In this document: piece after piece, positions 7,046-32,121 of the stretch
How the letters are laid out: each line of letters begins with the position of its first letter
Numbering within the stretch: the stretch's first letter is position 1
Source: Candidatus Nitronauta litoralis
GTDB taxonomy: Bacteria > Nitrospinota > Nitrospinia > Nitrospinales > Nitrospinaceae
Direction: 5' to 3'
Assembly (NCBI GenBank): GCA_015698285.1
Contig: CP048685.1
Span: 3,038,001-3,102,000, forward strand
DNA length: 64,000 bases
Made by a program: the position numbers and the translations under genes
Notes under the pieces: generated by a model
Told to the model about the DNA's origin: nothing
What the model saw: only the letters and a program-made list of their open reading frames with translations
The model's database searches: none

Positions 7046-7561
7046 TCAAATATGCTGCTCTACCCGAAACCGCGAGTAAGCTACATTTTCGTTGTTTTTG
7101 ATACCACCCTTTGAACGACAGATCTTTTCCTGTTGGTCCACTGTTTCAATACCCTCGATTCCCGGCAAGAGAACACCCTGCTTTTTACCGCTCCGCACAA
7201 TCAAGCCATCTACCTTTGGATCCAGGTTTGAAATATCGTCTACGGGTTCAGGTGGTGTGACCACTTCAATGCGGATGGTCAGTCCATCGATCTCACTGTG
7301 GCTTACCGGATCGTAGCGTGGATCCTTTGTGGCAGCCAGTATCGCGTTTCGTACCACTTCCTCAGCAAGTGATTGGGTCTGTGGTTTGAGGGAACCAATA
7401 CAACCCCGTAAACTTCCATCCTGGTACAAGGTAACAAACGCTCCGGTCGGTTTACTGAAACTGGATTGGATATTTTCGGGGGGAACAAGTTTCTTACCGG
7501 AATCCAGGTGGTGTTGTATGGCGTTTCGGGCTAACTGAACAAGTGGGTGGGAAGAGGGCAT
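7046..7561 (-). CDS. amrA: AMMECR1-domain protein (AmmeMemoRadiSam system protein A)
   Basis: This 171-residue protein matches the AMMECR1 domain. Supporting motifs are GAFVTLYQDGSLRGCIGSL, with the conserved LRGCIG core, and AAATKDPRY. In bacteria the domain is usually found with a Memo-like protein and a radical-SAM enzyme (AmmeMemoRadiSam); neither partner is encoded next to it here. The biochemical role of the family is not settled. It is convergent with aclA and lies 72 bp downstream (transcriptionally) of the polyprenyl synthase gene, so the two could be co-transcribed. Confidence 0.82.
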   Translation of the reverse strand: MPSSHPLVQLARNAIQHHLDSGKKLVPPENIQSSFSKPTGAFVTLYQDGSLRGCIGSLKPQTQSLAEEVVRNAILAATKDPRYDPVSHSEIDGLTIRIEVVTPPEPVDDISNLDPKVDGLIVRSGKKQGVLLPGIEGIETVDQQEKICRSKGGIKNNENVAYSRFRVEQHI

Positions 7562-7633
7562 TTAATGCCTCGCGGGTGAACTTTAAAGATATAAAGAATT
7601 GGGTGGCTTGTGTGATTTGAAACTAAAACCGGA

Positions 7634-8659
7634 CTAATATGAACGGCCTGATGGAATTAAATGGGTTCCCGTTGGCTGGAAACGATCCACGATATGATTG
7701 GCTGTGGATTGGAGAGCGGGTTTGAAGTCCGGGTTGGGGAACTCCAGGTTTTGAAGCTTTTCTTTGGCCCGCTTCATATGGTCACGAGCAATATCGAGCG
7801 TATAGTCGATCGCTTTCACTTCCCGCATTCGCTCCAGAATATACTCAAATTCTTTTTGGGTCAGGCATTCATTCTGGATGAACCCTTCAATTTCCCTTTT
7901 TTGTGAAGAATCTGAATGCTGATGGAGATAAAGAAGAGGGAGCGTGACATGTCCTTCGTTAAAATCTGTGCCTGGGGATTTACCCAGTTGCTCAGGGGTG
8001 CCATCGTAATCCATTGCATCGTCGACAAGCTGGAAGGCGATACCAAAGTCCTTGCCGAATTCATACAAGGAGGTAACGATTTCAGGATCCGCTCCTCCGA
8101 GTTGTGCGCCCAACTGACAGGCCAGGGCCATAACGGAAGCTGTTTTTCGATAGGCTACATCCAGACAATGTTCCTGAGTGACATTGATATCCCGTGCATG
8201 GGTGAATTCGAGAAGGCCACCTTCAACCAGCGTTTTGGCACCTTCTGCAAAGCAACGGAACACAGTTTCGTCGACATCGTTGGATAAAAGAAGCAGGGCT
8301 CGTGCAATTAAAAAATCGCCAACAAGAATACTGGCGTCACTTCCCCATTTAGTGTTAACCGTAGGTCTCCCGCGGCGGACGGTTGTTTCGTCTACAACAT
8401 CATCATGCAGAAGAGAGGCGGCATGAACGTACTCTACGGCGGTAGCATGACGGATAACTTTGTCATTAACTTCAATGCCGGAAAGTCGCGTGCAGATCAT
8501 AAGTAACAGGGGACGAACACGTTTGCCGCCACCATTCATGATGTAGTCGCCAATTCCTGGAACCAGTGGGATGTCGGAAAAGTAGTTGTCCCTGAGACAC
8601 TTTTCTACTCCTGCCAGATCGTCTTTGAATACTGCGCTGACTTCTTTAAAGTCCATCAA
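7634..8659 (-). CDS. ispB: long-chain all-trans polyprenyl diphosphate synthase (IspB-like)
   Basis: This 341-residue trans-isoprenyl diphosphate synthase has both Asp-rich motifs: DDVVDE in ASLLHDDVVDETTVRRG (first Mg-diphosphate site) and DDAMDY in FQLVDDAMDYDG (second). GGGKRVRPLLL near residue 45 is the IPP-binding region. The length and sequence fit octaprenyl/heptaprenyl-type synthases, which make the quinone side chain from FPP and IPP in the cytosol. The chain length made cannot be decided from motifs alone, so the ispB symbol denotes the family. There are no other quinone genes beside it. Confidence 0.85.
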   Translation of the reverse strand: MMDFKEVSAVFKDDLAGVEKCLRDNYFSDIPLVPGIGDYIMNGGGKRVRPLLLMICTRLSGIEVNDKVIRHATAVEYVHAASLLHDDVVDETTVRRGRPTVNTKWGSDASILVGDFLIARALLLLSNDVDETVFRCFAEGAKTLVEGGLLEFTHARDINVTQEHCLDVAYRKTASVMALACQLGAQLGGADPEIVTSLYEFGKDFGIAFQLVDDAMDYDGTPEQLGKSPGTDFNEGHVTLPLLYLHQHSDSSQKREIEGFIQNECLTQKEFEYILERMREVKAIDYTLDIARDHMKRAKEKLQNLEFPNPDFKPALQSTANHIVDRFQPTGTHLIPSGRSY

Positions 8660-8844
8660 TTATTCCTATGGGAACGATTTATTTCAGGAGCCGAAATCGG
8701 GAGTTAGGCCTCATGGAAAATTTGAGCTAAAAACGTTCGCGAAATCTTAACTATTATGGGAAAATCGCTAGATTGTCAAGGGTTTTGTCCAGTATACAGG
8801 ATTCCGACCCTTTAGGACAGAATACGCCAAAAAAAGCAGGTTGA

Positions 8845-9741
8845 ATGCCAGATACCTACATTAACACCCCGCGGGTTTCAGTCGTTATTCCTACATATAA
8901 TAGAGTTGAATTCCTTGAGAAGGCCGTTGAATCGGTTCTTCTGCAAACCTGGTCTAACTGGGAGTTGATTGTTGTTGATGATGGGTCAACGGATGATACA
9001 GCAGATACCATGCAAGGGATTCCCCAGGTTAATTTCCTTAGATTTGAAGAAAATAAAGGGGTTTCGTATGCCAGAAACCGCGGAATAGAAATAGCTGGTG
9101 GAGAATTTATCTGTTTTCTGGATTCTGATGATCAATGGCTCCCTGAGAAACTGACCCGACAAGTTCAATGGATGGAAAAGAATCCAGAATGTTCCGCCTG
9201 CTATACGGATGAGATCTGGATTCGGAATGGGGTCCGGGTCAACCCTATGAAAAAACACCGCAAGTATTCAGGCCAGGTGTTCCGGAACTGCCTCCCTTTA
9301 TGTATTATAAGTCCCTCGTCTATTATGATGCGACGGGAACTTTTTAACGACATAGGCGTATTTGATGAATCACTTCCTGCTTGTGAAGATTATGATTTGT
9401 GGTTACGTTTGACTCTCCGGAATCCCGTCCATTTCATAGATGAAAAGTTAATCGTTAAAACCGGGGGCCACAGCGATCAGTTGTCTCGAAAATACTGGGG
9501 AATGGACCGCTTTCGGGTTTATGCCATGGAAAAGGTTATGAAGAACCCTGGGATTTCACCGGAGCAAAAAATGTGGGTTCTTGAGATGTTGATAGAAAAA
9601 TGTCGAATACTCAGTTACGGGTATAATAACAATAATAAACCTGCAGATGCTTCGCTGTTTTTCGAAAAAGCTGAAAATTACGCCGCAGAATTAACCACGA
9701 TTCCCGGAAAATCCGAAGAGGGGTTCCAGAAAAAAATATGA
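8845..9741 (+). CDS. GT2-family glycosyltransferase
   Basis: This 298-residue protein has a GT-A fold N-terminus of family 2: VSVVIPTYNRVEFLEKAVES, then the nucleotide-sugar motif VVDDGSTDDT and FLDSDDQWLPEKL, which carries the metal-binding DxD. CEDYDLWLRL later in the chain is the typical acceptor/catalytic ED motif. There are no membrane segments, so it is cytosolic. It probably adds a sugar to a surface polysaccharide or lipid. Its stop overlaps the start of the HEAT-repeat gene by 4 nt (ATGA), and two ABC exporter genes follow, so a role in making and exporting a cell-surface glycolipid is possible. Confidence 0.85.
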   Translation: MPDTYINTPRVSVVIPTYNRVEFLEKAVESVLLQTWSNWELIVVDDGSTDDTADTMQGIPQVNFLRFEENKGVSYARNRGIEIAGGEFICFLDSDDQWLPEKLTRQVQWMEKNPECSACYTDEIWIRNGVRVNPMKKHRKYSGQVFRNCLPLCIISPSSIMMRRELFNDIGVFDESLPACEDYDLWLRLTLRNPVHFIDEKLIVKTGGHSDQLSRKYWGMDRFRVYAMEKVMKNPGISPEQKMWVLEMLIEKCRILSYGYNNNNKPADASLFFEKAENYAAELTTIPGKSEEGFQKKI

Positions 9742-20551: not shown

Positions 20552-21567
20552 TGGCTCCCAAATTTAAAATAGGCGGAAATTTAATAAAAAAAGGAGAGCG
20601 CAAAAAGATCCAACTTGCTGTTTCTCATCTTTATGACGGGACCGATCTGTCGATTCCGGTAGAAGTTATCCGTGGGGTTGAGGATGGGCCTGTTTTGTTT
20701 ATTTCAGCTGCCATTCATGGGGATGAGATAAACGGAACAGAAATAATCAGTCGGATTTTGAAAAACAGGACACTGAAAAAACTGAAAGGAACTTTAATTA
20801 CCGTTCCTGTTGTAAATGTATTTGGGTTTAACATGCTATCCAGATATTTGCCTGACCGGCGGGATTTAAACCGATCATTCCCCGGTTCAAAAAATGGGTC
20901 GCTTGCTTCCAGATTGGCAAATATATTCATGAATGAAATTGTTAAGAAATCAACTCATGGAATCGATTTACATACCGGAGCGGTTCATAGAACCAATCTT
21001 CCGCAAATCAGAGCATGGATGAGCAATGCTGAAACCAGGCGATTGGCTTTTGATTTTGGGGTCCCGGTAATTTTGAATTCCAATATTCGCGATGGTTCTT
21101 TGAGAGAAGCTGCTCGAAGAAAAAAAATACCCATGTTGCTTTTTGAAGGGGGAGAAGCGCTGAGATTTAATGAAAAAGTCATTGAAATTGGTGTGAACGG
21201 CTGCCTGTCTGTAATGCGATCAATAGGGATGCTTCCCAAGAAAAAACACCGGGAAAGAAAAGAAGTCTTTGTTTCATGGGGAAGCCAGTGGCTCCGTGCT
21301 CCTGTCAGTGGACTTGTGCATACCTTAAAGAATCTTGGGACACGAATTAAAGAGGGTGATTCGCTTGGTGTAATCACAGATCAATTTGGAAAGCCCAGAG
21401 GAGAAATCATTTCTCCGATTGAAGGAATTATAATTGGCCAGTTAAAATTGCCTTTAGTGAATGGCGGCGACGCTCTTTATCATATTGCGGGTTTTCACAA
21501 TACCAAGAAAGTGCATAAAACAATTGAACAGATAGAGCAGGATATTTTTCAGTGCTTTTATGATTAA
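20551..21567 (+). CDS. succinylglutamate desuccinylase/aspartoacylase-family zinc hydrolase
   Basis: This 338-residue M14-like zinc hydrolase carries SAAIHGDEINGTEI, with the HxxE zinc ligands, a later HTG in GIDLHTGAVH giving the third ligand, and FEGGEALRFNEK with the candidate catalytic Glu. The C-terminal ~80 residues form a small beta domain typical of this group. Family members hydrolyse N-acyl amino acids. The start overlaps the rimK stop by one base (TAATG), indicating translational coupling. The last 135 bp of the gene (from 21433) are duplicated downstream at 22235, and the duplication also carries an IS-derived element. Confidence 0.83.
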   Translation: MAPKFKIGGNLIKKGERKKIQLAVSHLYDGTDLSIPVEVIRGVEDGPVLFISAAIHGDEINGTEIISRILKNRTLKKLKGTLITVPVVNVFGFNMLSRYLPDRRDLNRSFPGSKNGSLASRLANIFMNEIVKKSTHGIDLHTGAVHRTNLPQIRAWMSNAETRRLAFDFGVPVILNSNIRDGSLREAARRKKIPMLLFEGGEALRFNEKVIEIGVNGCLSVMRSIGMLPKKKHRERKEVFVSWGSQWLRAPVSGLVHTLKNLGTRIKEGDSLGVITDQFGKPRGEIISPIEGIIIGQLKLPLVNGGDALYHIAGFHNTKKVHKTIEQIEQDIFQCFYD

Positions 21568-21634
21568 CCGATTTTTAAGGTCCCGTCTTTTTCCCTTCGT
21601 TCGCTACGCTCACTTCGGATAAAGGACGTTGATA

Positions 21635-22112
21635 GTGTCAAGAAAGTTTCGCACTTTGAATTTTGGAAAGTCCTCGATCAGGTCTGCGGTTGTTGGACCT
21701 GTGAGCCTTTAGGCCCTTTGGGGCCTGTTCGGAACCTTCAGGACTACCTCACCCGCCTGGGTCTGAAGCTTCCTGTCATAATGACCCGCACGGGTGTCTT
21801 TCCGACTCTCCGACCTCTCATACTTGCCAGCGCCGCACAAACGGTCCGCTTCCGCATCCAGCAAACCGTTCAGCGTTTCCTCAACTGTCGAACGCACGAT
21901 CCCGGTCACATGGCTCTGGATTTTACCCTCGTCTATCGATACAATGTTCTTCACAACTGATGACGCTACGTCTTTCCTAGACTTCGCTTTCATATTAAGT
22001 CCTCCTGTTTTTAGGTCCGGTTCTCGTTTCTCGCAAAACGAAGTATACAGACCTAACGGAGGACTTTCCTTGTTCCAGCCAACACGACCAGATTAAATGT
22101 GCGAAACTTGTC
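21635..22112 (-). mobile_element. IS256-family-derived mini-element, copy 1
   Basis: A ~480-bp element bounded by inverted ends: left GTGTCAAGAAAGTTTCGCAC (21635-21654) and right GTGCGAAACTTGTC (22099-22112), whose reverse complement matches the left end from AAGTTTCGCAC. Inside lies only the N-terminal part of an IS256-type transposase. A full IS256 is about 1.3 kb, so this is an internally deleted, non-autonomous derivative. It could only move with a transposase supplied in trans. Confidence 0.7.
21709..21993 (-). pseudogene. IS256-family transposase, N-terminal remnant 1
   Basis: Encodes 94 residues that look like the start of a Mutator/IS256 transposase: SSVEETLNGLL-like text (here RSTVEETLNGLLDAEADRL), then KYERSESRKDTRAGHYDRKL and TQAGEVVLKVP. 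It stops right after VPNRPQRA, before any part of the DDE catalytic core. It is therefore non-functional as a transposase, although the DNA-binding part could in principle still be made. Confidence 0.8.
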
Positions 22113-22236: not shown

Positions 22237-22369
22237 TGGCCAGTTAAAATTGCCTTTAGTGAATGGCGGCGACGCTCTTTATCATATTGCGGGTTTTCAC
22301 AATACCAAGAAAGTGCATAAAACAATTGAACAGATAGAGCAGGATATTTTTCAGTGCTTTTATGATTAA
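22235..22369 (+). pseudogene. displaced 3' tail of the aspartoacylase-like gene
   Basis: An apparently exact copy of the last 135 bp of the gene ending at 21567, including the stop codon, with no start of its own. It begins directly at the left inverted repeat. It is the first part of direct-repeat copy 2. Confidence 0.88.
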
Positions 22370-22436
22370 CCGATTTTTAAGGTCCCGTCTTTTTCCCTTC
22401 GTTCGCTACGCTCACTTCGGATAAAGGACGTTGATA

Positions 22437-22914
22437 GTGTCAAGAAAGTTTCGCACTTTGAATTTTGGAAAGTCCTCGATCAGGTCTGCGGTTGTTGGAC
22501 CTGTGAGCCTTTAGGCCCTTTGGGGCCTGTTCGGAACCTTCAGGACTACCTCACCCGCCTGGGTCTGAAGCTTCCTGTCATAATGACCCGCACGGGTGTC
22601 TTTCCAACTCTCTGACCTCTCATACTTGCAAACGCCGCACAAACGGTCCGCTTCCGCATCCAGCAGGCCGTTCAGCGTCTCTTCAACCGTCGAACGCACG
22701 ATCCCGTTCACATGGCTCTGGGTTTTTCCTTCATCTATCGATACAAAATTCCTCACAACTGATGACGCTGCGTATTCCTTAGACTTCGCTTCCATATTAA
22801 GTCCTCCTGTTTTTAGGTCCGGTTCTCGTTTCTCGCAAAACGAAGTATACAGACCCAACGGAGGACTTTCCTTTTTCAAGCCAATACGACCAATTCAAAT
22901 GTGCGAAAGATAAT
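22437..22914 (-). mobile_element. IS256-family-derived mini-element, copy 2
   Basis: Same structure as the first mini-element. The left end is identical (22437-22456). The right end GTGCGAAAGATAATG is degenerate compared with copy 1, so this copy may no longer be mobile. It carries a second, diverged transposase N-terminus. Confidence 0.65.
22511..22795 (-). pseudogene. IS256-family transposase, N-terminal remnant 2
   Basis: Equivalent to the remnant at 21709-21993 (start at 22795 by alignment; the frame is open further upstream to 22879). It keeps STVEETLNGLLDAEADRL and TQAGEVVLKVP but differs at about ten residues, for example KSKEYAASSVVRN against KSRKDVASSVVKN. It ends at the same VPNRPQRA, so both copies descend from the same deleted ancestor. 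Confidence 0.78.
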
Positions 22915-22924
22915 GTACGTTATC

Positions 22925-23413
22925 GGTAGAATTCGTACTCCCGTTCAACGTCTCCGTCTTCTTCGTGATACGGCCCAGTTTGTCTCTTTCAAAAACAGTT
23001 TTGAAACGCTCACTGGCAAGGTACGACGCGCTGTATTCTTCCATCTCACCGAAACCGTTGTACAGGTAGTCATCGGTGATCTTCTTGACTGGCGGAGAGG
23101 CGTTGTCGTACATCTCCGTTGTCTCAAGCAGACCATTGGCTGTGCTGTTGGCGATTTCAGAAACGGTATCGTAGATCAGACCGAGTTCAAACTCATCACC
23201 ATTCCCTGCTATTCCGTCAGGATCGTACTTGGCAGAGGCAAGAAGATCGTCATCGTCGTAGGCGAAACGTGCAACTTCTTCATTGGGAGTGGACGCATTG
23301 TCCGACGCGGTACGCGATGTGATGCGGAAACTGTTGTCGTACTCGCGCGAGACAGTACCGACAATAAAACTGCCGCGGCTCCACGTTGTGCTGATTGGGA
23401 GAGAGCCGTTGTA
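22925..23413 (-). pseudogene. RHS/YD-repeat core fragment, headless and tailless
   Basis: About 160 codons nearly identical to the beginning of the larger RHS fragment at 26528-28324: YNGSLPISTTWSRGSF, the YDPDGIAGNGDEFELG block and SERFKTVFERDKLGRITKK. It has no start, no DPxG end motif and no C-terminal toxin. It stops at the IS-derived repeat. It is separated from the secreted immunity gene (23523) by ~110 bp of AT-rich non-coding DNA, and looks like the remnant of a fourth cassette. Confidence 0.83.
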
Positions 23414-23522
23414 GTGCAACTGCCAAAGCCAGATAAGATACAAAAGCAAAAATAAAAAAAACGGCTACAATATCACATATCCAACAAGGGCCTCTGTCTG
23501 GCGAATACTAGCTTTGTATAGA

Positions 23523-24071
23523 TTAAGGGCCATTTGAAATAATTAATTCAATAAGGTGATCCTCCCTAAAAGTTAACCAAGAATCATAATTGACTATGAT
23601 TCTTTGGTCGTCTTTATCTGTGGCTGTATACTCCAAAATCTCATCTCCATTCTCAAGGATTTTCTCAGATATAGGTTTTCCATATTTTTCTATGACAAAT
23701 TGTTTTGATACACCCAGCTCTATTCCTTTCTTGGTTTTTGGGGATTGTTCAAGCAAAGCCTCACCACAGTCCCAACCAATGTTTTCTTGGGCAATAATTA
23801 ATCTTACCGATCCAATCAACCCATCTTCTCGTAAACTAAAGATTACTCTCTGTTTTAATCCCTTATTAAGGTAGCAAAGCATATCTCCCATTTCAGTGTC
23901 AGGTTTTCCAACGCCCAAAAGCTTTTCTAATTCTTCTTTTTGATGAGTCCCAATCTCGATACCCAGAATACTGTTATCAAAAAACAGAACTCTCTGAGTC
24001 TCGGCATTTGCACAACACGGTAAACAGAAAATAAACAAAAGGAGCAAGCTTCTAATTAAAAATGATTCCAT
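23523..24071 (-). CDS. secreted candidate immunity protein for the L,D-transpeptidase-like RHS tip
   Basis: This 182-residue protein has a clear signal peptide ([20 protein letters not shown], cleavage after ANA; a Cys pair near the end might instead allow lipidation). The mature part contains two similar segments: [17 protein letters not shown] and [16 protein letters not shown]. Such paired SmpA/OmlA-like stretches suggest a duplicated small fold. Its start overlaps the toxin gene stop by 16 bp. Periplasmic export of an immunity protein fits a toxin that acts on peptidoglycan, as in the known Tlde1/Tldi1 pairs. The function is inferred from position and export only. Confidence 0.65.
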
Positions 24072-24979
24072 TGCCTATCCAATACTAATAAGGATTCGTA
24101 GGGACCAAATTGCTTTCCAATTTTTACAATTTCTTCTAAATCATCTGCAGAAACCCTAATGCATCCAAAAGTTGGGTGCCTCGGATTATTCCTTCCAGCA
24201 TGGACACCCATCTCAGTCCTATTTGGAACTCCTTGCACCCAAATAAAATATGCTCCAATTCTCCGCCTCCTTTCTTTTGTATCACGTTTCCCTGTCGTGG
24301 GTATAATTTTCACAGGACTATGCTGGCCTTCTGGAAACGGGCCTTTACTTTTACTATCAGTATTATTATATGCTGGAAATTGAACGACAGTATCACCTTG
24401 GTCAATTATTGTCATGGTATTCTCTGTTGGGTCGTATTCCATCCTTAGCAGTCCAAACGGATCATAAAAGTTAATCGGATCACTAAGCGAATAGGTATAC
24501 ACATTTGGCCCATCCCCATCAAACCCAATCGGGTCTTTGCTGGTCCATCTTCCTGTTTCGGGGTCGTAATCGCGAGCCCCGAAGCGGACGAGCTTGGTGT
24601 CTTCGTCGTAGAGCCCTCCTGCGAAGCCAAATGGCTGGAAGCCGGGGTTAGTATCGCTAAGTACGTTGCCCCATTCATCATAGTCTAACGCCTGAACTGT
24701 ATTTCCGCTAGAGGTGTCTATAACAAAACGTGGACTTCCTAAATGATCGGAAATGATCCGGTACACTCCCGCATTCGTCAAGCCGCTCGGAATCACCATC
24801 ACATCTGGCACATTCGCGCGGGAGGCATAAATAAAAAGCTTGGTAATGTTGCCGCTGCCGTCAAGTTCTGCGATCGGGTTGAGTTGGTCTTTGTACAGCC
24901 ACTGTTGCTCGAGCGTGCCGCCGACTTTTTTTCCGATCCTGCGATTACGTCCGTCGATCAGATACTCGATATCATTGAC
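24056..24979 (-). CDS. orphan RHS tip with L,D-transpeptidase-like C-terminal domain
   Basis: The RHS-like frame begins without a start codon at about 24979 ([17 protein letters not shown]), 12 bp after the preceding immunity stop. The core end runs through [17 protein letters not shown] to DPFGLL, the usual boundary before a variable tip. The ~125-residue tip contains [19 protein letters not shown] and [10 protein letters not shown], giving a His and Cys in the order of L,D-transpeptidase (YkuD/Tlde1) catalytic sites (Cys codon 24161-24163). Such tips cut or modify peptidoglycan. It resembles a displaced toxin cassette that becomes active when recombined onto a full-length RHS gene. Confidence 0.72.
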
Positions 24980-24990
24980 CGTGGCAGAGA

Positions 24991-25323
24991 CTAATTGGGA
25001 ATGCTGTAAACTGAAAAATAAATAAAAAGTAGTAAATATATCAGATAGGAATATCTTAATACATCGCCCAAAATACTTAAGCTTTTATCCTTTAACAGTT
25101 TGTATTCACCTTTAACTACAAACCAAAACCTAGCAACTCCATTCTGAATTGAATTATTCCAAAAAATAGTGGGTGAGCCTAAGTTTTTCCAAATTTTATT
25201 ATGTTTGCTTTTTAAATCAGAATCAAATTTCATCGTGATCGCAAAACCAAATAATATAAATAAAAGGAGTACGAGCCCGGAAACGGGCCCCTCAAATGAA
25301 AATTGACCTATCTTAAAGTCCAT
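24991..25323 (-). CDS. two-helix membrane protein, candidate immunity to RHS tip 2
   Basis: This 110-residue protein has two hydrophobic segments ([16 protein letters not shown] near the start and [14 protein letters not shown] at the end) with a basic, Lys-rich middle. The ribosome-binding site TTGGAG lies 8 nt before the ATG. It sits 18 bp after the Gly-rich RHS tip gene. No family is recognised. Position, size and membrane location suggest an immunity protein against a membrane-active or periplasmic toxin. Its TAG stop is followed almost at once by the next RHS core fragment. Confidence 0.55.
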
Positions 25324-25341
25324 TTTTAGACTCCAATGAAA

Positions 25342-26262
25342 TTAACGATCAAAAGTGAAGGTAAAGGTAGGTGCCGTGGTGGTTGTTACCGTGGCACTAA
25401 ACCCTGCCCCTGCCGTAGCACTCACTTTACCTTCATCCCCTCCTCCAGTGCCAAAATCAGCAGTAACATCTACTGTTACACCAGCTACTCCAATTCCGCC
25501 TGCCACACTTCCTTGGACTCCAAAACCAGTATTTTTGGTCCCTCGTACCTTTGCTATTGGAACAGATACAGATGGTTTTGCAGAAAACCCAAATCCAGCC
25601 GCAGGCTTCACTTTGCAAACAATTTGTTTTTTTGTAACTTTAATATTTGCTATTGCTCCAAAAACGACACCTCCACTCACATCAACATTAGCCTCGTCAA
25701 TAGGGGTAAACCTAGGATCGGAAGGCTTATCAGTATCTGGAACAACAATAGGCTTACTACCTTTTCCATCCCAATTGATTGTAGTAGATTGTTGACCAGC
25801 ACTTGTGCTAGCTAATCCATTCAAGTCAAAATTGTTTATCGGGTTTTGAAACGCGTACCCATAAAAATTTGGGATATCTCCCCTAAACCTAATGGGGTCT
25901 TTACTGGTCCACCTTCCTGTTTGCGGATCGTAGTCCCGGAATCCGAAGCGGACGAGTTTTGTGTCTTCATCGTAGATTCCTCCTGCGAAGCCAAATGGCT
26001 GGAAGCCGGGGTTAGTATCGCTAAGCACGTTGCCCCATTCATCATAGTCTAACGCCTGAACTGTGTTTCCGCTAGAGGTGTCTATAACAAAACGTGGACT
26101 TCCTAAATGATCGGAAATGATCCGATACACTCCGGCATTAGTTAAACCTGCCGGGATCACCATGACATCCGGCACGTTGGCGCGGCTGGCGTAGATGAAG
26201 CGTTTCGTGATATTGCCGGAGCCGTCGAGTTCGGCTATTGGATTGAGCTGGTCTTTGTACAA
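25342..26262 (-). CDS. orphan RHS tip with Gly/Val-rich C-terminal domain
   Basis: The RHS frame starts at a TTG (26262) that directly follows the TAG stop of the preceding immunity gene, entering the core at [15 protein letters not shown]. It runs through [17 protein letters not shown] to [10 protein letters not shown]. The remaining ~170 residues are unlike the other two tips: low in Cys, rich in Gly, Val and Thr, with repeats such as [16 protein letters not shown], probably all beta-strand. No toxin family is recognised; a pore-forming or membrane-inserting fold is one possibility. A small membrane protein gene follows, consistent with toxin/immunity order. Confidence 0.62.
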
Positions 26263-26505
26263 CTAGAAAATAAACTCACCCATAAGATTCCAAATACCAA
26301 CACCAACCAAAGCGGTCCCTGCTAAATAATTATAAGAAACTAGAAAATCTTCTCCAAAAACCTTCTTCAATGATACTTGGGCTTGTTCAAAAATATTCGC
26401 TGATTTTTCATCAGGACAAACAAAAAAAGGCCACTTCTTTTTTGTCCCGATAATAAAAGCCCCACCGTATCCTATTAAGAGCAAGGAAAAAATTAATGAT
26501 ACCAT
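26263..26505 (-). CDS. two-helix small membrane protein, candidate immunity to RHS tip 1
   Basis: This 80-residue protein has a hydrophobic N-terminus (MVSLIFSLLLIGYGGAFI) and a second hydrophobic stretch near the end (YLAGTALVGVGIWNLMG). A ribosome-binding site (AGAGGAT) precedes the ATG. It lies 22 bp after the stop of the largest RHS fragment. No family is recognised. Its stop codon abuts the next RHS fragment without any spacer. Confidence 0.52.
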   Translation of the reverse strand: MVSLIFSLLLIGYGGAFIIGTKKKWPFFVCPDEKSANIFEQAQVSLKKVFGEDFLVSYNYLAGTALVGVGIWNLMGEFIF

Positions 26506-26527: not shown

Positions 26528-28324
26528 TTAGGGTAAAGGTATGGTTTCATTATAAGGACTGAAAGCAAAACTCCCTCCTAAAAATATATTAATACTCCCA
26601 AATGATGTTTCACCAGTATTCGGGTTTTGTGTTCTGTCAAAACCGATTCCAAAAATGCCTGCCCCTGGTGTAGATAAAGAACAGGAGAAAACCACTTTCT
26701 CACCAGGATTTGGCCGAAATACCTTAATCGTTGCACCAGATGAGATCCTCCCAGTTGGAATCACATTAATATTTTTTGTGACATTTCCATCCTCATCCGT
26801 TTCCAAATTTAATACACCTATATCATGAGTTCCAACCACTTTAATATTATCTTCAATCCAATCATCAATTGGGTCATTACCAACATCAGGTTCTATCACA
26901 AAAAAATCTCTTTTGTGGACATCAGTGTATCTATGGTTTATTGGGACTCTCTTATTGCCAAATAAACCACTCAAGTCTCTAAAGTTTACAGGATCATTTT
27001 GAGCATAACTCATGAAATTTGCACTACGGCCAATAAACCGTATCGGGTCCTTGCTGGTCCATCGCCCTGTTTCTGGATCATAGTCTCTGGCACCGAAGCG
27101 GATGAGCTTGGTGTCCTCGTCGTACAGTCCTCCTGCGAAGCCGAAGGGCTGGAAGCCGGGATTGGTGTCACTGAGTAGATTGCCCCACTCGTCATAGTCT
27201 AACGCCTGTACGGTGTTTCCGCTAGAGGTGTCTATAACAAAACGTGGACTACCTAAATGATCGGAAATAATCCGGTAGACTCCGGCATTGGTCAAACCCG
27301 TTGGGATTACCATCACATCCGGCACGTTCGCACGACTTGCATAGATAAAGCGTTTGGTGATGTTGCCGGAGCCGTCGAGTTCGGCTATAGGGTTAAGCTG
27401 ATCCTTGTACAACCACTGTCGCTCAAGTGTGCCGCCGACTTTCTTGCCGATCCGTCGATTACGTCCGTCGATGAGATACTCGATATCGTCGGTGGTGTTG
27501 GGCAAGTCAACGTTGCGTAGATTGCCGAGAACGTCATAGGTGTACGTCGTCACGTCGGAACCGACGGTCTTCGTCAACAGTTCCCCGTTGTCCGTGTATG
27601 TATAGGTCGCGCTGGAGGTTGAGGTGAGACGATCCTGATTATCATACACCGCGCCGTTGCTTAAACGATTCGAGTTCGCATCGTAGTTATAAGTGACGCT
27701 GGTGCTGTTGCCCGTGTCCGGCACATCGTTGATGACCGGTGTTGTTATCACCTTCTGCAGGCGACCCGCATCCTTGATCACACCCGGTGACACCTCATAC
27801 GTATATTCATACTCATACTGAGTAGAATTCGTGCTGCCGTTCAGCGTCTCCGTTTTCTTTGTGATGCGACCGAGTTTGTCTCGTTCGAACACGGTCTTGA
27901 ATCGTTCACTGGCAAGATAAGACGCGCTGTATTCCTCCATCTCACCGAAACCGTTGTACAGGTAGTCATCGGTGATCTTCTTGACCGGCGGAGAGGCGTT
28001 GTCATACATCTCCGTTGTCTCAAGCAGGCCATTCGCTGTGCTATTGGCGATTTCAGAAACGGTATCGTAGATCAGACCGAGTTCGAACTCATCGCCGTTG
28101 CCCGCGATTCCATCCGGGTCGTACTTGGTGGAGGTGAGCAAATCGTCATCGTCGTAGGCAAAACGTGCGACTTCTGTAGAAGTCGCATTGTCCGATACGG
28201 TACGCGATGTGATGCGGAATGAGTTATCGTACTCACGCGAGACAGTGCCGACAATAAAACTGCCGCGGCTCCACGTTGTGCTGATCGGCAGAGAACCGTT
28301 GTAGGTGAAGTCGAGCTTCTCATA
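26528..28324 (-). CDS. RHS/YD-repeat protein fragment with tip 1 (5' truncated)
   Basis: The longest RHS piece has about 600 codons open from 28324; the first Met is at 28141. It contains YD repeats (YTYDVLGNLRNVDLP, YNYDANSNRLSNG) and the C-terminal core [17 protein letters not shown], then the tip boundary NFRDLSGLFG. The ~150-residue tip is of unknown type; it carries NPNTGETSFGSINIF and one Cys. Upstream the frame is closed by a TGA inside the hairpin of the right inverted repeat, so no N-terminal part or export region is present. A full RHS would be well over 1,000 residues. Confidence 0.77.
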   Translation of the reverse strand, partial: YEKLDFTYNGSLPISTTWSRGSFIVGTVSREYDNSFRITSRTVSDNATSTEVARFAYDDDDLLTSTKYDPDGIAGNGDEFELGLIYDTVSEIANSTANGLLETTEMYDNASPPVKKITDDYLYNGFGEMEEYSASYLASERFKTVFERDKLGRITKKTETLNGSTNSTQYEYEYTYEVSPGVIKDAGRLQKVITTPVINDVPDTGNSTSVTYNYDANSNRLSNGAVYDNQDRLTSTSSATYTYTDNGELLTKTVGSDVTTYTYDVLGNLRNVDLPNTTDDIEYLIDGRNRRIGKKVGGTLERQWLYKDQLNPIAELDGSGNITKRFIYASRANVPDVMVIPTGLTNAGVYRIISDHLGSPRFVIDTSSGNTVQALDYDEWGNLLSDTNPGFQPFGFAGGLYDEDTKLIRFGARDYDPETGRWTSKDPIRFIGRSANFMSYAQNDPVNFRDLSGLFGNKRVPINHRYTDVHKRDFFVIEPDVGNDPIDDWIEDNIKVVGTHDIGVLNLETDEDGNVTKNINVIPTGRISSGATIKVFRPNPGEKVVFSCSLSTPGAGIFGIGFDRTQNPNTGETSFGSINIFLGGSFAFSPYNETIPLP

Positions 28325-28348: not shown

Positions 28349-28483
28349 ACTTGTAATAGCATGTTTGCTCTTTTAAATAGGGCCAGGCTTTAATAGCCCA
28401 TAAAGTGCTTGGCCACTGTTTCCACTATAGCATTGTTGGCTGGAAATTCATGAGGAGGGGGGGGTGACAAAGCTGGGATCAGG

Positions 28484-28699
28484 TCAGCCGCCGATTCTGG
28501 TCTTCAACTTGGTGTTCAGGTTGCCGAGGCGTCTGCGGAAGTGATCGGTAACGGTTTTACCGTCGCCGGTGTATGAGATGATGTGTGGGGTGATGAACAG
28601 CATCAGTTCGTTTTTGTTCAAGGTTTCATCCATGGTGCTGAACAGTCGGTGAATGGCAGGATTATCTTTGGGCAGGGATACAACAGTGATGGTTTCGCT
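28484..28699 (-). pseudogene. displaced 3' tail of gspD
   Basis: About 215 bp similar (roughly 80-85 % by eye) to the last part of gspD at 29617-29832, ending in the same codons up to the stop (GNLNTKLKTRIGG against GNLNTKFKTKIGG). No start and no secretin core are present. It is either a relic of a replaced gspD end or the trace of a recombination with a related strain or paralogue. Confidence 0.8.
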
Positions 28700-29616: not shown

Positions 29617-32121
29617 CTAACCGCCGATTTTGGTCTTGAACTTGGTGTTCAGGTTGCCGAGGCGTCTGCGGAAATGATCGGTAACGGTTTTGCCGTCGCC
29701 GGTGTTTGAGATGATATGCGGTGTGATGAACAGCATTAATTCGGTTTTGTTCAGGGTTTCGTCTGTGCTGCTGAACAAGCGGCCAATGCCTGGAATGTCC
29801 TTGAGCAGTGGAACACCGGTGATGGTTTCGTTGGTTGTGGTTCGCATCAACCCACCCATGACCAGGATCTGATTGTCTTTAAGAACCACTTCTGTATTGA
29901 CCACGCGCGTACTGAAAGAGGGGACCGTGCCCACATCCGGGCCGCGGTTACTGATTTCCTGATTGATCTTCAGGTTCACAAAGTTGTCCGAGTTGATCTT
30001 GGGGAGAATCCCAAGTTTCACACCGACACTTCTGAATTCAATCGTCGTCTGCGTCAACGGCTGTCCCGCAGTGGGCGACGAAATGGTGGAGCTTTGAATC
30101 GGGATATCGTCTGTGATGGAGATGGTGGCTTCTTTATTGTCGGAAGTTACCAGGATCGGATTGGCTACCACGTTGGCTTTGGAATCATTTGAGAAGGCCT
30201 GCAACAAGGCAATCAGTTTGCCGGGATCGCCGACAAAGAAACTGGATCCTGCCGCGAACAGCGGAGTTGCCGCCTGTCCGAGAGCGGTTCCCAAAAGAGT
30301 TCCCGTAGTGTTGCCGTTGGTACCGCCTGCGAATACATTTGTTCCCGGGCCCGCCTGCTGTGTTGCCCATTCAAGACCGGTACGGGTCTGCTCGTCGATG
30401 GTGAGGTCAAGGATCATCACCTCGATCACCACCTGCTGCGGAAGCAGGTCGAGTTTCTTCACCAGTTCGAGAACTCCAGGATAATTTTTTGCGGCGGTGC
30501 GGACCACCAGGGAATTGGTGTCTTCATCCGGAATGATGATGAGGTCGCCTTCGACCTGTGTCTCCAAACCACCAGCCACCCGGAAAGGAGTGGTTGTAGG
30601 CGCTCCCGTTCGGGGATTGATGTTTCTCTTGTTCTTGTTTTGCGCCGCCTTTTGGGCAGCCGCTGCTGTTTTGGCATTTTTCTTGTCTTTTTGTTTGCTC
30701 TTCTCTTCCGCGAAGATGGAATTCAGAATTGTGGCCAGGGAAGTGGCTTCCGCGTTTTGCACGTAGTACACGAAGGTGCTGAGGTTGCCGCCTGACATGG
30801 GTTGATCCAGCTTGCCTACCCAGAATTCGACCGTTTCCATGACTTCTTCAAGGGAGTTGACGACAAGTAAAGAGTTCAGCCGGGTGATGGGAAGAAAGGT
30901 CAGGCTTTCACCGAGGGCTTTCTGATAGCCCATCGAAGTGAAAATTTCTTCAAGCTCCTCCGCGACCATGGTTACATCAGAGTGATCCATTTCGAATAGT
31001 TTGATATCCGATGCCGCCAGTTTGTCGATGTCGATAGCGCGAATGACTTTCATCACCTTGCTTACGTTAGAGGCGAGGTCGACCAGCATCAGGTTGCGTG
31101 TGTCGGGAACGTCGAGCAGGGTTGCCGTGCCTGAGAGCAGGGGAGTGATGACCTGGCGCATGGCTGTGTTCGATACATAGCGCAACGGAATGATCTGGAT
31201 AACAACCCGGTCCCCTTTGGGAAGATTGGGATCGTTTCCATAATAAATACTTACCGGTTTTCTTGGCGCGTCGGGTAGTGGAAGAAATCGATAGAAGCTT
31301 CCGCTTTTGACCACAGTCATCTGGCTGACTGCCAGGATCTGTTCGAACACGGAGTAGAGGTCTTCCGCTGGAATCTGATTGAACGTTTGCAGCGTCACTT
31401 TGCCTTGCACGTTGCCCTCGATAACGTAATCGAGTTTGAGAAGTTCCGCAAAGGTGGTGATGACTTCGTAAATGTCCGTTCCCTCAAAGTTGAGGGTGAT
31501 GTGTTTGGCTTTTTTCAGTTCCTTGGGGAGGGGAGGGGTTGCATCTTTTTCATAGCGTACGTTTTCCGGGTTCAGCCGGGTGCCCGTGCGGACGATTTCA
31601 CCTTCCTTGCTGAATGATTTTCCTTTTCCATCTTTTCCCTCGGAACCATCCAGTTTTCTTTTTTCAATTTTGGCGAACAGTTTTGGGAGAAAGAACTTTT
31701 CCCCTTTGTCATTTTCAACCAGATACCAGATGGGAGTTTTGGCAGATCGTCGGACTTCCCTCAAAAATTTGAACTCGTCACCTTTGTCGGCAGAACCTAT
31801 TTTCCGGAATTTTATGCCGGGTCCTTTTCTCAGGGGAACTTTATTTCCGGTGACCACCGCCATTTTCCTGTCGGCAGGCGGCTTTAATTTCTTCAAATCT
31901 CCCAGGTCCAGGCCTTTGTTGGAAACCTTGGTGACATAGCCCTTAGAGTTAGATTCTGCGGATGATCGGTTTCTCGCGCTTTTTTTGCTTTTGGGGATCT
32001 GTAGTTTTTTGACGGGATCCCCTTCAGTCAACTGGTCGATGGACGAGTTGTTTTTTATGCACCCGGAAACTGGCAGCGCAAGGCTTAAACCTAATAAAAT
32101 AAAGACCCAAAAGCGATTCAT
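29617..32121 (-). CDS. gspD: type II secretion outer-membrane secretin
   Basis: This 834-residue secretin begins with a lipoprotein signal (LALPVSGCIKNN, lipidated Cys at residue 21). A bacterial SH3-like segment follows (KVPLRKGPGIKFRKIG, about residues 95-150). The N0 domain starts at ITLNFEGTDIYEVITTFAEL, then N1-N3 domains, interrupted by a Lys/Ala-rich linker near KAAQNKNKRN. The C-terminal secretin barrel has VVIEVMILDLTIDEQT and VVLKDNQILVMGGLMR. It forms the outer-membrane channel through which folded proteins leave the periplasm. It is the last gene of the gsp operon and overlaps gspM by 4 nt. The SH3-like insert is not usual in GspD and may bind peptidoglycan. Confidence 0.92.
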   Translation of the reverse strand: MNRFWVFILLGLSLALPVSGCIKNNSSIDQLTEGDPVKKLQIPKSKKSARNRSSAESNSKGYVTKVSNKGLDLGDLKKLKPPADRKMAVVTGNKVPLRKGPGIKFRKIGSADKGDEFKFLREVRRSAKTPIWYLVENDKGEKFFLPKLFAKIEKRKLDGSEGKDGKGKSFSKEGEIVRTGTRLNPENVRYEKDATPPLPKELKKAKHITLNFEGTDIYEVITTFAELLKLDYVIEGNVQGKVTLQTFNQIPAEDLYSVFEQILAVSQMTVVKSGSFYRFLPLPDAPRKPVSIYYGNDPNLPKGDRVVIQIIPLRYVSNTAMRQVITPLLSGTATLLDVPDTRNLMLVDLASNVSKVMKVIRAIDIDKLAASDIKLFEMDHSDVTMVAEELEEIFTSMGYQKALGESLTFLPITRLNSLLVVNSLEEVMETVEFWVGKLDQPMSGGNLSTFVYYVQNAEATSLATILNSIFAEEKSKQKDKKNAKTAAAAQKAAQNKNKRNINPRTGAPTTTPFRVAGGLETQVEGDLIIIPDEDTNSLVVRTAAKNYPGVLELVKKLDLLPQQVVIEVMILDLTIDEQTRTGLEWATQQAGPGTNVFAGGTNGNTTGTLLGTALGQAATPLFAAGSSFFVGDPGKLIALLQAFSNDSKANVVANPILVTSDNKEATISITDDIPIQSSTISSPTAGQPLTQTTIEFRSVGVKLGILPKINSDNFVNLKINQEISNRGPDVGTVPSFSTRVVNTEVVLKDNQILVMGGLMRTTTNETITGVPLLKDIPGIGRLFSSTDETLNKTELMLFITPHIISNTGDGKTVTDHFRRRLGNLNTKFKTKIGG

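Follow-up and report, generated by a model that had tools for sequence, protein, structure and literature searches.

The window analysed here is a 64,000-nt stretch (bases 3038001-3102000) of a 3.92 Mb single-contig genome. The feature under study lies on its minus strand, within an array of truncated Rhs modules (Table 1). The modules follow the order core-tip-partner, and each starts at or just past the stop of the previous partner gene. The middle module of the array, termed B, contains a 306-aa ORF whose residues 73-150 match the Rhs-associated core domain (TIGR03696) in its 3′ part. As the core ends at residue 150, the tip amounts to 156 aa, a shorter domain than the approximately 170 residues estimated in the first-pass annotation.

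Table 1. Features of the Rhs array (window positions).
Feature	Position	Strand	Basis
Module A, truncated Rhs core + different unclassified tip	26528..28141	-	ORF; tip without Pfam match
Partner A, 80-aa hydrophobic protein, probably two-helix	26263..26505	-	One clear TM segment; second under cut-off
Rhs fragment B (150 aa of 3′ Rhs core + tip)	25342..26262	-	ORF, 306 aa; TIGR03696 E 2e-19, PF25023 6e-12
Tip B, Gly/Ala/Val/Thr/Ser-rich, 156 aa, predicted toxin domain	25345..25812	-	From core end at residue 150
Partner B, two-helix membrane protein, 110 aa, predicted immunity, UspB-like family	24991..25323	-	AF2 model, homologs, RBS
Partial core + YkuD (L,D-transpeptidase)-like tip	24056..24973	-	Core homology from 24973
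YkuD-like tip alone	24056-24454	-	PF03734 E 2e-4
Partner of YkuD-like tip, 182 aa, N-terminal signal-peptide-like segment, predicted periplasmic immunity	23523..24071	-	ORF; without family match
Another truncated Rhs core fragment, array end	22895..23449	-	88% DNA identity to 27822-28304

The core DNA of fragment B is 84-86% identical to that of the neighbouring modules, and the homology stops at 26261-26263, where it abuts the stop of the preceding partner gene. The apparent TTG start of the fragment is the codon right after this stop and lies within Rhs core sequence. Across the ORF from 26262 to 25342, the tip B frame has neither a start codon with a ribosome-binding site nor an export region. 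Since the TTG sits directly behind a stop and inside the core, fragment B is displaced and is without initiation or export signals of its own. The genome contains ten matches to the Rhs core, whose open frames reach 600 aa at most, so no intact, full-length Rhs carrier with the core of fragment B was found among these ten matches. The toxin may therefore never be deployed in the host. Module B is a displaced (orphan) Rhs cassette rather than a working Rhs toxin, and it is probably silent in the host genome, as a reservoir or a relict. Partner B has a ribosome-binding site of its own and may continue to be produced and to protect. The first-pass annotation missed that the module is a displaced, probably unexpressed cassette.

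In Salmonella, recombination with the main rhs gene was shown to activate orphan rhs modules (PMC3967940). The orphan Rhs-CT/RhsI modules of Salmonella LT2 likewise consist of a displaced 3′ core, a tip and an immunity gene. Similar to module B, they have no translation start or export signal and contain common core DNA for recombination (PMC3967940). The present case differs from that of Salmonella LT2 in that the host genome yielded no intact main rhs sharing this core, the host is not a member of the Enterobacteriaceae, and the tip is unclassified.

Another tip of the same array, the YkuD-like one, resembles known peptidoglycan-targeting L,D-transpeptidase effectors. Together with its partner, which has a signal-peptide-like N terminus, it probably makes up a toxin and immunity pair of the envelope. 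Immediately upstream of the truncated array, 28482-28697 is a partial duplicate (85% identical) of the 3′ end of a pilQ-like secretin gene (29617-32121), probably the trace of an insertion event. At the array end there are two truncated transposase remnants (21709-21993 and 22511-22879, minus strand), presumably IS256-like, which lie in identical direct repeats (21500-21799 / 22302-22601).

The residues G, A, V, T and S account for 59% of tip B. Its hydrophobic residues alternate at every second position (lag2-lag1 autocorrelation 0.37, p=0.001), with all alternation p-values computed against composition-preserving shuffles. The same alternation was recorded in tip C of the host genome (p<0.0005) and in the Rhs tips of loci L011 (0.014) and G061 (0.047), which are described below. 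It is not significant in the control tips, of the Ntox22, YkuD and GIY-YIG-like types (p 0.17-0.36). The pattern would fit amphipathic beta strands and speaks against a helical glycine zipper, which agrees with the first-pass description of the tip as beta-rich. AlphaFold2 of tip B alone (two sequences) gave a mean pLDDT of 38.7, so the term beta-rich is to be read as a prediction from the residue pattern.

Tip B has no match in Pfam, NCBIfam, PHROGs or PADLOC, in line with the earlier remark that it carries no recognisable toxin motif. Against the PDB, only chance-level matches were obtained (E at least 0.67). A single-protein search found no tip B in relatives (148 genomes), plasmids, viral contigs or 84,980 genomes. 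The reading frame of the tip is open through to the end. Tip B is a new, unclassified tip family. Its richness in glycine, regarded in the first-pass annotation as unusual for an Rhs tip, is shared by another family present in two copies in the same genome, and also by Ntox22 tips. The Ntox22 (PF15527) Rhs tip of a Massilia plasmid is Gly-rich, as is tip B, and mostly beta. Membership of Ntox22 was rejected, with no PF15527 match, an SW score against the Massilia Ntox22 tip within that of shuffles, and an hhalign probability of 0.8%.

The next gene encodes a two-helix membrane protein with a good ribosome-binding site, as the first-pass annotation had stated. It begins 18 nt past the tip B stop, and a TTGGAG sequence ends 8 nt upstream of its ATG. 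The AlphaFold2 model of partner B, based on seven natural homologs (pLDDT 83.5), comprises a helix at residues 11-40, a short amphipathic helical region and a second helix at 80-106. Foldseek found no match to this model in the PDB. A genome-wide scan of 84,980 genomes with the partner as query returned five homologs, and a search of relatives returned three further ones of decreasing strength; L011-L015 and L017 are among the homologs of partner B. The scan matches were confirmed by tblastn with the real partner protein of the window as query. The two alignments that were searched included invented, conservatively substituted sequences to loosen the patterns, and these are not counted as evidence. 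Searches of plasmids, phages, viral contigs and the host phylum (represented by 77 genomes) yielded no partner homolog. The phylum searches of G140, G169, G138 and G103 gave only one doubtful partner match, within a 412-aa frame. Most of the family members found (L012-L015, L018 and L019) stand alone, without a toxin nearby, and immunity is therefore not the sole business of the family.

The partner B family appears to be distantly related to UspB. The PF10625 (UspB) model is matched by four of seven family members, colinearly and over nearly the whole of its 107 positions (E 4e-5 to 0.013). The best member, L012, scores 23.9 bits (E 4e-5), which is below the gathering cut-off of 28.6. Partner B of the window has no PF10625 match itself, and the link runs through its relatives L011 and L012. 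The NCBIfam UspB model is matched at 4e-5 by one member of the family, and hhalign against the single E. coli UspB sequence gave a weak, colinear alignment (P 0.009, probability 4.6%). Partner B is of the same size as UspB (~110 aa) and likewise has two TM helices, as shown by its AF2 model and hydropathy. E. coli UspB is encoded beside uspA, whereas partner B is encoded behind an Rhs tip. Partner B also carries an LGSPxxFxNNSIxN motif which is absent in E. coli UspB. To our knowledge, UspB has a stress phenotype but no known molecular function. It has been described as a sigmaS-regulated integral membrane protein required for stationary-phase ethanol resistance (Farewell 1998, as cited in PMC8233506). 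Among the papers listed in a literature search combining UspB with immunity proteins or polymorphic toxins, there was no mention of UspB.

The pairing of a Gly-rich tip with a small membrane partner recurs elsewhere. In a Nitrospiraceae MAG (L011), a member of another phylum, the best homolog of partner B (38% identity, SW z=22) is encoded immediately downstream of an Rhs ORF with a length of at least 1403 aa. The last ~100 residues of this ORF are Gly-rich and alternating. As the scan query was the partner alone, the Gly-rich Rhs tip upstream supports the pairing independently. Similarity between tip B and the L011 tip is weak (score 73, z=4, with 58 for the reversed-sequence control). The L011 tip gives z=7 against the G061 tip and z=5.5 against tip C, with reversed sequences scoring high too, and common ancestry of tips B, L011 and C is uncertain.

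Tip C of the host genome (L032:7150-7497, with the same sequence in L033) is Gly-rich and is followed by a 77-aa two-helix protein. Its relative in G061, another species of the same order, was found by profile search on an Rhs that spans at least 1139 aa and continues beyond the contig end. A related two-helix protein is again located behind the tip, and comparison with the tip C pair gives z=25 for the tips and z=12 for the partners. Tips A and D contain less glycine, and their partners are likewise small and hydrophobic; both tips were rejected as tip B homologs, their z values of 3.3 and 2.3 not being convincing. Nuclease-like tips in the host genome (GIY-YIG-like, E 0.08) have soluble-looking partners. 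In G169 (L017, L020), a partner homolog lies two genes behind a fragment resembling a toxin tip, beside a membrane-anchored gene. At L020:9952-11707, a possible poly-immunity cluster, which includes a partner B homolog, is situated behind the toxin-tip-like fragment.

The best explanation of module B is an orphan Rhs toxin/immunity cassette, in which tip B would be a membrane-inserting toxin domain and partner B its specific immunity protein; the probability of this reading is put at roughly 0.55. That tip B and partner B form a toxin and immunity pair is, taken by itself, likely. The pair is supported by the cassette architecture, by the case from another phylum in which a Gly-rich Rhs tip precedes a homolog of partner B, and by the parallel tip C family in the same order. 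The first-pass annotation had suggested a membrane-targeting toxin and its inhibitor. The pair stands on the cassette architecture and its recurrence, and the membrane as target is plausible by analogy. Action of tip B on the inner membrane is suggested by the two-helix build of its partner and by the glycine-rich, alternating sequence of the tip, which recall the CDI ionophores, Ntox25, Tse4 and Tse5/Tsi5.

In the proposed mechanism, recombination within the common core DNA would join tip B to a full-length Rhs carrier, and the carrier would deliver it into the envelope of a neighbouring bacterium. Tip B would then insert into the inner membrane as amphipathic beta strands, dissipating the membrane potential. 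Partner B, in the inner membrane of the producer, would bind or block the inserting tip. We infer toxicity, a membrane target and pore formation for tip B, and direct binding for its partner.

Several known systems are comparable. Ntox25 and Tse4 are predicted beta-barrels which depolarise membranes (PMC11630599). The Ntox25 (PF15530) CdiA-CT ionophores and Tse4 are thus predicted beta-rich depolarising toxins with cognate immunity, and tip B is proposed to work likewise. Membership of Ntox25 itself was rejected, as Pfam scans gave no PF15530 match for any of the four tips. The same scans gave no match of these tips to any other Pfam toxin. The immunity proteins of the CDI ionophores are two-helix hairpins of 72-100 aa (PMC11630599). 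The CDI type 10 ionophores resemble module B in this hairpin immunity and in the fast evolution of both toxin and immunity protein (PMC11630599). The type 10 toxins are five-helix bundles, however, whereas tip B looks beta. The termini of the type 10 CdiI are cytoplasmic, while the charges of the basic loop in partner B would suggest the reverse orientation. Tse5 is an Rhs protein whose tip inserts in the inner membrane and is neutralised by the two-TM immunity protein Tsi5 (PMC9637101). Its C-terminal toxin, Tse5-CT, is thought to be helical, in which it would differ from tip B. The ‘new type’ announced in the first-pass annotation is too strong a term, as depolarising toxins with small two-helix immunity proteins are already known (CDI ionophores, Tse5; also Ntox25 and Tse4; PMC11630599, PMC9637101).

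The pair could also be a true one with a tip that acts as a soluble beta enzyme or as a binder and is aimed at an envelope component, for instance peptidoglycan or lipid II. Partner B would then protect from the membrane without ever meeting a pore. The YkuD-like tip next door indicates that cell-wall targets occur in the array, and the low pLDDT of tip B leaves it without a usable fold model. This alternative is nevertheless unlikely. No catalytic motif was found, the alternating, small-residue composition is unlike that of an enzyme, and a two-helix hairpin with no periplasmic domain is poorly suited to blocking a soluble enzyme.

It is quite unlikely that the tip is decayed or structural, namely a non-toxic Rhs extension or a relict of repeated recombination, with the partner a UspB-like cellular gene brought along by chance. 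An open frame to the end of the tip and a retained ribosome-binding site for the partner speak against decay. So do the occurrence of a tip of this type next to a partner homolog in the Nitrospiraceae MAG and the conservation of the tip C pair together across species. In favour of a relict are the displacement of the fragment, which lacks both a start and an export signal, the fact that no full-length carrier with this core was found in the genome, and the partner relatives that occur alone in other bacteria. Very improbably, partner B does not inhibit the tip but assists it, as a chaperone or insertase required for its export or membrane insertion: UspB relatives exist without any toxin, so toxin binding need not be their function, but known Rhs chaperones are soluble Eag proteins acting at the N-terminal end, and the gene that immediately follows an Rhs tip usually encodes its immunity protein.

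If tip B is a membrane-inserting toxin and partner B its immunity protein, module B would extend the repertoire of membrane-acting Rhs toxins by one unclassified tip family and one UspB-related immunity family, beyond the groups studied so far. The novelty lies in the tip family and in the UspB-like nature of the partner, and the UspB link is the most interesting part. A wider proposal, speculative and improbable, is that UspB-like proteins are widespread inner-membrane guards against membrane-inserting beta toxins. Some would be cognate Rhs immunity proteins and others, perhaps UspB itself, stand-alone descendants or ancestors. If true, this would give UspB a molecular role. The partner family offers a testable handle on UspB, namely whether UspB-like proteins bind membrane-inserting toxins.

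Other Rhs cassettes of the host genome were recorded alongside. Tip C, its two-helix partner and a transposase-like gene are identical at two chromosomal loci (L032:6448-9406 and L033:9374-12041). The unclassified tip D (L034:6955-7437) is followed by a 72-aa two-helix protein at 7451-7669. Further displaced cassettes are located at L033:7624-8817 with 8821-9291, L033:12149-13128 and L032:9514-9999. These include a GIY-YIG-like nuclease tip with a soluble-looking partner, and the genome is rich in displaced Rhs cassettes.
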